A stretch of DNA of 64,000 nucleotides. It comes from Lactobacillus johnsonii ATCC 33200 (GTDB lineage: Bacteria; Bacillota; Bacilli; Lactobacillales; Lactobacillaceae). The notes under the pieces were generated by a model. The model was not told the origin of the DNA. It was given only the letters and a program-made list of their open reading frames with translations, and did no database searches. Numbering within the stretch: position 1 is the first letter of the stretch; each line of letters opens with the position of its first letter. Where the stretch lies: assembly GCF_000159355.1 (NCBI RefSeq), contig NZ_GG670121.1, forward strand, positions 456,358 through 520,357, in the 5' to 3' direction. Shown here in pieces: positions 12,313 through 43,367 of the stretch. Position numbers and translations under genes: made by a program.

Positions 12313-14121
12313 ATGACAAAGATTAGTGGCTCAGATGCAATGTTTCAAGTCTTATATGACTGGGGTATTGACCATATATACGGTTTTCCAGGCGGCTCAT
12401 TTGACTCAACAATGAATGCAATTCATAACTGGCGAGATAAGATAAAGTTTATTGAAGTAAGACATGAAGAAGCTGGTGCCTTAGCAGCTTCTGCTGAATA
12501 CAAAATTAGTGGAAAAGTAGGAGTGTGTTTTGGTTCTGCAGGCCCTGGTGCCGTTCACTTAATGAATGGACTTTATGATGCAAAATATGACAAGACACCA
12601 ATGGTTGCAATTGTTGCTAATGTTCCAACAAGTCGTCAAGATATTGATTTCTTCCAAGCTTTTGATGAAAAGCCATGGTTTGATCCAGTCGCTGTTTGGA
12701 ATCACCAAGCAAAGACAGCGGAAGCTATTCCGGTTTTAATGGATGAGGCAATTCGTCAAGCTTATCAAAAGAAAGGGCCAGCTGTTTTAATTTTACCGAA
12801 AGACTTTGGTTGGGATAAGATTGAAGATAACTTCCGCAATAATGCTGCAGCACACAAGATCGTTCCTAATTTCCCAGCACCACGTAAGGAACAAATTGAT
12901 AAAGCACTTGAATTAATTAAAGAAGCTAAAAATCCAATTGTTTACTTTGGTCATGGTGCCCAAGATGCTAGTGCAGAGTTAAAGGAATTTTCTGATAAAT
13001 TTAAGATGCCACTAGTTTCATCAGTTTTAGGAAAAGGAATTGTTGAGGATGAGTTCCCAGCATACATGGGCTCAATTGGTCGTGTTGGTGCTAAGCCAAG
13101 TAATGATATTCAAACTCATGCCGATTTAGTAGTTTGGGTTGGTAACAATTCACCATTCTCCGTCTTCTTCTTCAATCCTAAGGCAAAAGTAATCCAAATT
13201 GATATTAATTCAGAAAGACTGGGTAAGCGTCATGCTGTAACTGTTCCAATGTTAGCTGACTCCAAGAAAACTTTACGTGCTTTAATTGAAGCAGGTGAAG
13301 GGCGTGCAGAATCTCCATTATACAAGGCTGCTCTTGCTGATCGTGAAAACTGGGAAGCTTGGCTTGAGAGCTTTAATGATTCAGACGAAATCCCAATGAG
13401 AGTAGAACCAATTTTTGATGTAATCAATAAAAAGGCTGCTAATGATGCCGTATTTGCAGTAGATGTAGGTAATGTAAATATTAACTTTGATCGCTTGATG
13501 CACCTACATGATGATCAGAAATGGACTACCTCCGGCTTATATGCAACTATGGGCTATGGCGCTCCAGCTGCTTTAGCCGCTGCTACTATTTATCCAAAGC
13601 GTGAGGTTTGGAACTTAGCTGGTGATGGTGGCTTTGCCATGATGAACCAAGAGCTTTTAACCCAAGCACGCTACAATATGCATATTATTAACGTGGTCTT
13701 CACAAATGAAACTTTGGGTTTTATTGAAGCTGAACAAGTCGATGAGTCTCATCAACCATTATCTGGTGTAAAACTTCCTGATAATGATTGGGCGATGTCT
13801 GCTGAAGGTATGAATGTAAAAGGCTTTACTGTTCGTACTAAGAGAGAATTTGAAGACGCAGTCGCTGCGGCTCAACAAATGGAAGGTCCAGTTTTGATCG
13901 ACTGTAAGATTACTCATGATATGCCATATTCAACTGAATTAAATACTTTAGACGATCCAGCTTTCGTTGCTAAATATGATGCTCAAGCTTTGAAGCCATT
14001 TAGTTACTTTGCTGGTAAGTATGGAGTTGAGGCAGATGCTGCATCTGGTGCATCTGAACATACTGAAGCAGAGCCAGTTGAAGCTAAAGAAGATGCTTCA
14101 TCAGGCGCATCACGCCATTAA
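12313..14121 (+). CDS. pox: Pyruvate oxidase (H2O2-forming) with duplicated SGAS tail
   Basis: This TPP- and FAD-dependent enzyme oxidises pyruvate with O2 and phosphate to acetyl phosphate, CO2 and H2O2. The 602 residues show the N-terminal TPP Pyr domain with the catalytic Glu in RHEEAGALAA, a central FAD domain, and the C-terminal TPP motif GDGGFAMMNQELL...FTNE. After the conserved end (about KYGVEAD) comes a 28-residue acidic tail containing DAASGASEH and DASSGASRH (DNA 14035-14055 and 14092-14112). The same motif ends lactate oxidase, and it resembles ApbE flavinylation sites. The Shine-Dalgarno AAGGAGA is unusually far (about 12 nt) from the ATG. The gene is monocistronic, with a terminator behind it. 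The enzyme call is firm; the role of the tail is inference. Confidence 0.96.
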   Translation: MTKISGSDAMFQVLYDWGIDHIYGFPGGSFDSTMNAIHNWRDKIKFIEVRHEEAGALAASAEYKISGKVGVCFGSAGPGAVHLMNGLYDAKYDKTPMVAIVANVPTSRQDIDFFQAFDEKPWFDPVAVWNHQAKTAEAIPVLMDEAIRQAYQKKGPAVLILPKDFGWDKIEDNFRNNAAAHKIVPNFPAPRKEQIDKALELIKEAKNPIVYFGHGAQDASAELKEFSDKFKMPLVSSVLGKGIVEDEFPAYMGSIGRVGAKPSNDIQTHADLVVWVGNNSPFSVFFFNPKAKVIQIDINSERLGKRHAVTVPMLADSKKTLRALIEAGEGRAESPLYKAALADRENWEAWLESFNDSDEIPMRVEPIFDVINKKAANDAVFAVDVGNVNINFDRLMHLHDDQKWTTSGLYATMGYGAPAALAAATIYPKREVWNLAGDGGFAMMNQELLTQARYNMHIINVVFTNETLGFIEAEQVDESHQPLSGVKLPDNDWAMSAEGMNVKGFTVRTKREFEDAVAAAQQMEGPVLIDCKITHDMPYSTELNTLDDPAFVAKYDAQALKPFSYFAGKYGVEADAASGASEHTEAEPVEAKEDASSGASRH

Positions 14122-42137: not shown

Positions 42138-43367
42138 ATGACAACTTACTATAAGGGCTTCCCACAAAGTACAAGAGAAGAAAAGTTACATATGGTTAAC
42201 TTAGATGAACTGGAGCATGAAGCAAAATATGTAATGCCAGAGGCAGCCTATTATTATGTAGCTAGTGGTGCTGAAAATGAATGGACTTGGCGAAATAACA
42301 CTCAAGCATTTAATCATTTTCAAATAGTTCCTCGAGCTTTGACTGGAATGCAAAACCCTGAACTTAATACTGAGTTTTTAGGGAAGAGCCCGGTTATGAT
42401 TTGTCCAATTGCATGCCACGGTATTGCAAACGCTGAAGCAGAAATTGATACTGCAAAAGGTGCAAAAGCTGCTGGGGCCTTATTTGCGATGAGTACCTAT
42501 GCAAATAAGAGTGTACAAGAAGTACAAAGTGCAGTAGGGGATTCTCCTAGATTTATGCAACTATATTTAAGCAAAAACTGGGACTTTAATAAGATGGTAA
42601 TTGAAGAATCAGTTAAAGCTGGTTTTACGGGATTTTTCTTAACAGTAGATGCTTTAGTTAGTGGATATCGTGAAGCTAACTTACGAACTAACTTTACTTA
42701 TCCGGTACCTTTGGCTTTCTTTAATGAATGGAACGGTGGAAAGGGTGAAGGACAAAGCGTTGCACAAATGTATGCTTCGTCGGCTCAAAATATTGGACCA
42801 GATGATATTCATAAAATAAAGAAAATTGCTGATGTTCCTGTAATTGTTAAAGGAGTTGAATGTGCTGAAGACGCTATGCTTGCTGTTGGGGCTGGAGCAG
42901 ATGGGATCGTAGTTTCTAATCACGGCGGACGCGAAGTAGATGGCGCTCCTGCGACGATTGATGTTTTACCTGAAATTGCTAAGGCAGTAAGAAGCTCAAA
43001 TCATCGTGTTCCAGTTATTCTTGATGGCGGCGTTCGTCGCGGCTCTCATGTCTTTAAAGCATTAGCATTAGGTGCAGACTTAGTCGGTATTGGGCGCCCA
43101 TTCTTATATGGCTTAACACTTGGTGGTGCACAAGGTGTTCAATCAGTTATTGAGCAATTAAATAAGGAATTATTGATTGATATGCAATTAACCGTCTGTA
43201 AGACAATTGAAGATATTAAACATGCGAAGATTGATCATATTAATTACAGTGCTGACTGGGGCATTTCTTCAACTAGCAGAAGCGTGATGAAACCATATCC
43301 TGTTACTAAGGAAAATCAGTTAACAGGTGAAGCAGCTGATGCTGTAAGTGGTGCCTCAAGACATTGA
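42138..43367 (+). CDS. lox: Lactate oxidase (H2O2-forming) with SGASRH tail
   Basis: An FMN-dependent alpha-hydroxyacid oxidase of 409 residues, turning L-lactate and O2 into pyruvate and H2O2. Seen: AYYYVASGAENEWTWRNN, FMQLYLSKN, the catalytic SNHGGREVDGAPATIDVLPEI (His and Arg) and the FMN-phosphate loop DGGVRRGSHVFKALALGADLVGIGRP. The C-terminus is longer than in Aerococcus lactate oxidase and ends DAVSGASRH (43338-43364), the same tail as pyruvate oxidase. AGAGGA precedes ATG 42138. Together the two oxidases would turn lactate to acetyl phosphate with two H2O2. Confidence 0.95.
   Translation: MTTYYKGFPQSTREEKLHMVNLDELEHEAKYVMPEAAYYYVASGAENEWTWRNNTQAFNHFQIVPRALTGMQNPELNTEFLGKSPVMICPIACHGIANAEAEIDTAKGAKAAGALFAMSTYANKSVQEVQSAVGDSPRFMQLYLSKNWDFNKMVIEESVKAGFTGFFLTVDALVSGYREANLRTNFTYPVPLAFFNEWNGGKGEGQSVAQMYASSAQNIGPDDIHKIKKIADVPVIVKGVECAEDAMLAVGAGADGIVVSNHGGREVDGAPATIDVLPEIAKAVRSSNHRVPVILDGGVRRGSHVFKALALGADLVGIGRPFLYGLTLGGAQGVQSVIEQLNKELLIDMQLTVCKTIEDIKHAKIDHINYSADWGISSTSRSVMKPYPVTKENQLTGEAADAVSGASRH

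Follow-up and report, generated by a model that had tools for sequence, protein, structure and literature searches.

The pyruvate oxidase (POX) family uses flavin adenine dinucleotide (FAD), and in Lactobacillus johnsonii ATCC 33200 the enzyme of this family encoded within the 64,000-nucleotide stretch of contig NZ_GG670121.1 analysed here (the window) continues past its conserved core into a short C-terminal tail, which raises the question of whether the tail carries a flavin of its own. The original prediction, made from the letters of the window, was that some 28 added residues hold two motifs like those recognised by ApbE flavin transferases, and that flavin mononucleotide (FMN) may be bound there covalently. 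This reading is supported by the sequence analysis described below, and we put at close to nine in ten the probability that the tail serines of POX, and those of a lactate-oxidase-like enzyme (LOX) encoded in the same window, receive FMN from ApbE.

The presence of the tail with its two motifs was borne out by the open reading frame (ORF), by the point at which alignment to solved enzymes ends, and by exact motif matches. Profile searches identified TPP_enzyme N, M and C domains, and the TIGR02720 score of 767.4 bits exceeds the equivalog cut-off of 637.85, with residues 6–566 covered. Alignment with the solved Lactobacillus plantarum POX ends at residue 573, and the last 28 residues (14035–14118) read DAASGASEHTEAEPVEAKEDASSGASRH. 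Both POX motifs (DAASGAS and DASSGAS), as well as the single LOX motif (DAVSGAS), match D-x-x-[S/T]-G-A-[S/T], the motif of ApbE substrates (PMC12052999). The same source reports that the seven-residue motif is enough to tag a protein with flavin, and that a terminus is the best place for it. When the 28 tail residues were shuffled 300,000 times, at least one motif arose in 482 shuffles and two motifs in none. In a predicted structure built from 23 of 29 sequences (the window and 28 further loci), residues 575–602 have a predicted local distance difference test score (pLDDT) below 50, so that the tail appears unstructured; the model is modest (mean pLDDT 64.5, predicted template modelling score 0.54) and proves little, and for this reason an argument from structure on the reach of the tail was rejected.

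In order to follow conservation of the tail, named genomes were scanned and 28 POX loci were recovered. A motif tail is found at 25 of these, namely 24 that were compared with the window sequence and the fragment L047. The exceptions are a second copy in L. colini (L036), which stops ahead of the tail, a Limosilactobacillus POX (L039) whose tail is without the motif, and a broken frame in L. kefiranofaciens (L044). Each of the 25 tails compared (the window and 24 of the 28 named loci, 22 of them distinct by reading) contains at least two motifs. The Asp is conserved in the first motif of all 25 and in the last motif of 23, and the Gly in 24 of 25 at both; since the search itself demanded Ala at place 6 and Ser or Thr at places 4 and 7, counts at those places are not independent. 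The putative acceptor at place 7 is Ser in all 25, with Thr also permitted by the search, and in every POX tail read, which slightly amends the original prediction, where Thr was given as the usual site of ApbE attachment. Codons at the motif places vary synonymously and the acidic linker drifts freely among the 25 sequences, for which reason it looks as though selection acts on the motif rather than on simple sequence. The tail is thus not the random low-complexity sequence in homologues that would have told against the prediction; together, the shuffles and the recurrence exclude a chance pattern, and the POX tail is real. As a separate observation, the POX tails of two loci labelled Faecalicatena absiana (L040 and L041) resemble that of Lactobacillus equicursoris (L042), and this likeness may reflect horizontal transfer, contamination or mislabelling.

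The original prediction also turned on a cytosolic ApbE homologue, and the genome encodes exactly one ApbE (PF02424, 226.1 bits against a cut-off of 25.6), a protein of 308 residues whose N-terminus reads MIENYASTPISKVGRGLGTV. No signal peptide or lipobox was seen in it by eye and hydropathy, no predictor being used, and the most hydrophobic 15 of the first 45 residues average just 0.83 on the Kyte-Doolittle scale, so that this ApbE is probably cytosolic, as is POX, at whose N-terminus no signal peptide was seen by eye alone. Enzyme and putative substrate would therefore share a compartment, judged from sequence. Residues 8–268 of ApbE align with the solved FMN transferase 7esa, and the AVTSGTYERF and YHHIIDPKTGYP regions are alike. 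Some 2 kb upstream, and in the same orientation as apbE, are two FMN_red genes (encoding 178 and 184 residues), and apbE overlaps the end of a gene that we take to be phosphatase-like. By family and arrangement the FMN_red pair probably corresponds to L. johnsonii FRedA and FRedB, a hydrogen-peroxide-forming NADH:FMN reductase pair (NADH, reduced nicotinamide adenine dinucleotide), and it may be in one operon with the flavin transferase gene.

The evidence goes beyond the original prediction, in that the tail is shared with LOX and with PAS proteins, and in that pox, apbE and PAS/FMN_red genes cluster in relatives. The motif pattern occurs at 14 places in the genome, against one for a reversed-pattern control, and on translation ten of the 14 proved to be true motifs within real ORFs: POX has two, LOX one, a 244-residue PAS_10 protein three, a 178-residue PAS_10 protein one, and an FMN_bind protein, a YtxH-like protein and FtsH have one each. 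Seven of the ten are in C-terminal tails, those of POX, LOX and both PAS_10 proteins, whereas the DTVSGAT of the fumarate-reductase-like protein sits inside its FMN_bind domain. Solved relatives of LOX include proteins named L-lactate oxidase, e.g. 6rhs, as well as flavocytochrome b2; because the TIGR02708 (L-lactate oxidase) score of 369 bits is under the cut-off of 645.5, the protein is called lactate-oxidase-like and its substrate is presumed.

To place these observations in a wider setting, 301 Lactobacillaceae genomes were searched for POX at E 1e-150, which gave 121 matches in 104 genomes, and all 121 C-termini were read. Motif tails are present on 23 of the 121 loci, in 23 genomes of five genera (g1, 15 of 15; g25, four; g6, two; g23 and g5, one each), and 14 of the 15 g1 enzymes have two strict motifs. 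Tail length, linker and the number of motifs (up to three) all vary, which leaves the motif itself as the recurring part; g25 tails have EED or ED, not His, after their last motif. All 23 genomes with a tailed POX are ApbE-positive, compared with 63 of 81 with a tail-less POX (Fisher p 0.011, kinship ignored). On a tree of the 121 POX cores a minimum of 4 changes accounts for the tail trait, whereas shuffled labels require 21.4 on average; the trait is thus clustered, yet not confined to one clade. LOX motif tails were found at all 15 g1 loci. The PAS core is present in 102 of the 301 genomes, 101 of which are ApbE-positive, versus 80 of the 199 without it (Fisher p 3e-28, uncorrected), and in at least 28 genomes, spread over 12 genera, PAS is no more than 3 kb away from apbE. 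One to four motifs are found on 27 of the 30 PAS loci read; of the others, L222 is frame-shifted, and L238 and L242 hold related repeats outside the motif pattern. These last two are g6 PAS-containing fusions, and their tails are rich in DASASAS-type repeats beyond the strict motif. The motif outnumbers its control by 265 to 54 in the 15 g1 genomes and by 275 to 202 in 42 ApbE-negative genomes, hand-picked out of 120 for size, an excess that is suggestive only; raw genome-wide counts were rejected as proof, since across the family they seem to track genome size and composition.

Gene order in relatives links the same components. In G230, from another genus, a single strand carries in succession pox (tail DVVSGASQHV), apbE, a gene of FMN_red type and a fusion of FMN_red/PAS type that has four motifs, in which PAS was assigned by profile match and FMN_red by likeness and from PMC4500961; such fusions have been reported in relatives (PMC4500961). 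The order in G191 is pox, apbE and a PAS gene with three motifs, and in G033, G123 and G170 apbE is directly 3' of pox, with PAS nearby. POX is tail-less in these last four genomes, and from the pox-apbE-PAS clusters it follows that POX, ApbE and multi-motif PAS proteins are linked even where the POX tail is missing.

We propose that the cytosolic ApbE would use FAD as its FMN donor and join the FMN to the Ser that closes each D-x-x-S-G-A-S motif. In addition to its active-site FAD, each POX subunit would then hold as many as two FMNs, bound covalently on an arm that is acidic and flexible. The same ApbE would modify the LOX tail, the PAS_10 tails and the FMN_bind domain of the fumarate-reductase-like protein. 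As a presumably disordered segment, the tail would let its FMN reach the active-site flavin of POX or LOX and pick up electrons. For the FMNs on PAS tails the NADH:FMN reductase pair would be the electron source, and a tail bearing three or four FMNs would give a high local FMN concentration. The reduced arm would then hand its electrons to O2 or to another cytosolic acceptor, e.g. the FMN_bind reductase. We consider the odds that tail FMN serves as an electron shuttle to be even; from the features above we infer the covalent FMN on POX and LOX, the passage of electrons through the tail and the identity of the acceptor. A broader and tentative possibility is a cytosolic bus of tethered FMN, in which one ApbE would equip POX, LOX, the PAS proteins and the fumarate-reductase-like protein with covalent FMN, mostly on flexible arms. 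Pyruvate, lactate and NADH would feed electrons into a common pool, from which they would pass to O2, or to a reductase when O2 is lacking, with no quinone required, and the oxidases that form hydrogen peroxide (H2O2) would become dehydrogenases of a soluble electron-transfer chain.

Several observations weigh against flavinylation of the POX and LOX tails or against the role proposed for it. Thr is reportedly preferred by ApbE (PMC12052999), whereas Ser occupies the acceptor place in every POX and LOX tail read. POX does not require the tail, because the 63 of 81 genomes mentioned above hold ApbE together with a tail-less POX, and in four g34 genomes pox adjoins apbE, yet POX has no tail. The association between POX tail and ApbE is on its own statistically weak, one genus contributing 15 of the 23 genomes, and the genomes are not independent, because the trait is clustered on the tree. 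Even within g1, G226 keeps only one strict motif, and outside g1 the LOX motif tail was found on none of the 31 loci read of the 125 matches listed. Some single motifs may be due to chance, given that a near relative has lost the one in its YtxH-like protein.

The alternative that survives best is that the tail FMN is a captive cofactor, which would fill or reload the flavin site of the same or an adjacent subunit and so prevent its loss. We regard this as rather unlikely, since POX uses FAD, which is not attached by ApbE, and carries two motifs, and since PAS tails bear up to four, so that motifs per chain outnumber the expected flavin sites. Such a tether has been put forward for FMN_red (PMC11334425), and could apply to LOX, which belongs to the FMN_dh family (PF01070). 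The shared tail might instead be a docking, sorting or degradation tag, common to oxidases and PAS proteins and free of flavin. Like other peptide tags, it is a short motif shared by unlike proteins, in many of which His or Tyr comes after it at the C-terminus, and it is predicted by the modest model to be unstructured. We nevertheless judge this improbable: the motif equals the published ApbE motif, every genome with a tailed POX is ApbE-positive, apbE adjoins genes of this kind, the last motif of g25 tails is not followed by His, and Lactococcus FMN_red tails of the same type are flavinylated (PMC11334425). That low-complexity tails rich in Ser, Ala and Asp arrive at the motif by chance is highly improbable, in spite of the simple acidic linkers and of the single YtxH-like motif that is not kept in all near relatives, given the shuffles, the two or more motifs in all 25 tails with their synonymous codons and drifting linkers, and the retention of the tail at 25 of 28 named loci.

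The proposed attachment of FMN by ApbE to the POX and LOX tails can be compared with several known systems. The C-terminus of E. coli PoxB is a membrane- and quinone-binding peptide that serves electron delivery, and flavocytochrome b2 joins a lactate-oxidising FMN_dh core to a folded heme domain that is the electron-carrying group. PoxB (3ey9), itself a pyruvate oxidase, would resemble POX in delivering electrons by way of its C-terminus; relative to flavocytochrome b2, the group added to LOX would be FMN on a short tail. In the fumarate reductase of Klebsiella the motif lies inside a folded FMN_bind domain, unlike the free tail of POX. We take POX to be a thiamine pyrophosphate enzyme with FAD, unlike FMN_red, and LOX to be an FMN_dh enzyme. 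Neither has a match to FMN_red (PF03358) at E 0.001, and the tail is their sole likeness to the flavinylated FMN_red proteins. The Klebsiella enzyme is likewise a soluble redox enzyme of the cytosol that is served by a cytosolic ApbE (PMC12052999). The FMN_red proteins of Lactococcus lactis and Lactococcus taiwanensis are flavoproteins with an unstructured C-terminal extension, as is predicted for POX; the extension has one or two motifs, is flavinylated with the cognate ApbE and, in Lactococcus, needs the Ser or Thr (PMC11334425, 2024). Unlike POX and LOX, the Lactococcus protein has the FMN_red fold, and the FMN is proposed to be secured in its own site (PMC11334425). Flavinylated C-terminal tails are thus already known on FMN_red, and the original idea stands less alone than it was presented, although the expected novelty of a tail-borne FMN may hold for pyruvate oxidase and likewise for the lactate-oxidase-like enzyme. 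The words pyruvate and lactate are absent from the main text of PMC11334425, and pyruvate oxidase, lactate oxidase and Lactobac- from the main texts of PMC11334425, PMC8238504 and PMC12052999; neither POX and LOX as ApbE substrates nor a shared set of cytosolic tails was found in the open-licence literature, other print being possible.

FRedA/FRedB (Nfr) and LjPAS, described from L. johnsonii in 2015 (PMC4500961), resemble in type the FMN_red pair and the 244-residue PAS_10 protein found here. That study treats LjPAS as an assembly regulator, unlike our reading, and mentions neither ApbE nor covalent flavin. The LjPAS studied was presumably unflavinylated, because E. coli was used to produce it and a Lactobacillus ApbE goes unmentioned, and if the tails do carry FMN its biochemistry bears repeating with the flavinylated form. 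The same paper gives a Michaelis constant of FRedA/B for FMN of about 20 uM and describes L. johnsonii as being without an endogenous quinone pathway (PMC4500961). L. johnsonii and L. gasseri are reported to be without menaquinone and heme synthesis and to have cytochrome oxidase genes (PMC5811513), the examined passages of which do not mention the tails. A pox knockout in L. johnsonii NCC533 leaves H2O2 unchanged, as cited in PMC4500961; diversion of electrons through a tail would be one possible reason, and the result would fit low POX expression as well. If FMN is indeed carried on these tails, two classical H2O2-forming Lactobacillus enzymes would gain an unsuspected cofactor. The role of ApbE flavinylation, discussed mostly as a means of holding flavins outside the cytosol (PMC8238504, PMC11334425), would then extend to a conserved set of naturally flavin-tagged oxidases in the cytosol, and the view of bacterial electron handling and H2O2 formation would change.

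Coordinates of all features are compiled in Table 1.

Table 1. Features bearing on the tails, in the window unless a locus is given
Feature	Position	Strand	Remarks
pox, pyruvate oxidase (SpxB type), 602 aa	12313..14121	+	ORF; TIGR02720; TPP_enzyme N/M/C domains
POX C-terminal tail, aa 574-602	14032..14118	+	begins after the part that aligns with solved pyruvate oxidases; predicted unstructured
Flavinylation motif 1 (putative), DAASGAS	14035..14055	+	putative FMN acceptor Ser codon 14053-14055
Flavinylation motif 2 (putative), DASSGAS	14092..14112	+	putative FMN acceptor Ser codon 14110-14112, two residues before stop
Lactate-oxidase-like FMN-dependent dehydrogenase (FMN_dh), 409 aa	42138..43367	+	PF01070, E 4.7e-110
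LOX-like C-terminal tail	43254..43364	+	no counterpart in 31 LOX loci from other genera
LOX-like flavinylation motif (putative), DAVSGAS in DAVSGASRH	43338..43358	+	putative FMN acceptor Ser codon 43356-43358
PAS_10 protein 1, 244 aa, LjPAS type	L016:8256-8990		three C-terminal motifs; PF13596, 74.3 bits, cut-off 22.1
PAS_10 protein 2, 178 aa	L016:11035-11571		one C-terminal motif; PF13596, 27.8 bits, cut-off 22.1
FMN_bind fumarate-reductase-like gene, DTVSGAT	L018:6462-9370		sole FMN_bind match in genome
Two FMN_red genes, 345-aa gene, phosphatase-like gene, apbE	L017:5129-9137	one strand	
pox (tail), apbE, FMN_red-type gene, FMN_red/PAS-type fusion	L214:8552-13539		another genus; four motifs in fusion

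Two of the motif-bearing proteins were rejected as substrates. The motif of FtsH is internal to the enzyme, in what we take to be a conserved FtsH stretch. That of the YtxH-like protein, which is present in 8 of 21 genomes of the genus (distant matches having been read in part only), occurs in this genome and, among three close relatives, in all but L252, where it is broken; in this group (L249–L252) it takes the form DSNSGAS or DTNSGAS near the C-terminus. The neighbourhood of pox in the window was likewise rejected as a clue: the flanking genes, presumably mnmE and mnmG on the upstream side and a 6-phosphogluconate-dehydrogenase-like gene on the other, offer no link. Beside the FMN_bind fumarate-reductase-like gene lies what appears to be a LysR-type regulator, an arrangement reminiscent of the loci for phenolic and vinylphenol reductases in lactobacilli, and by this analogy the substrate of the reductase may be other than fumarate. 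An NMN_transporter (PnuC-like) gene is found between the two PAS_10 genes.
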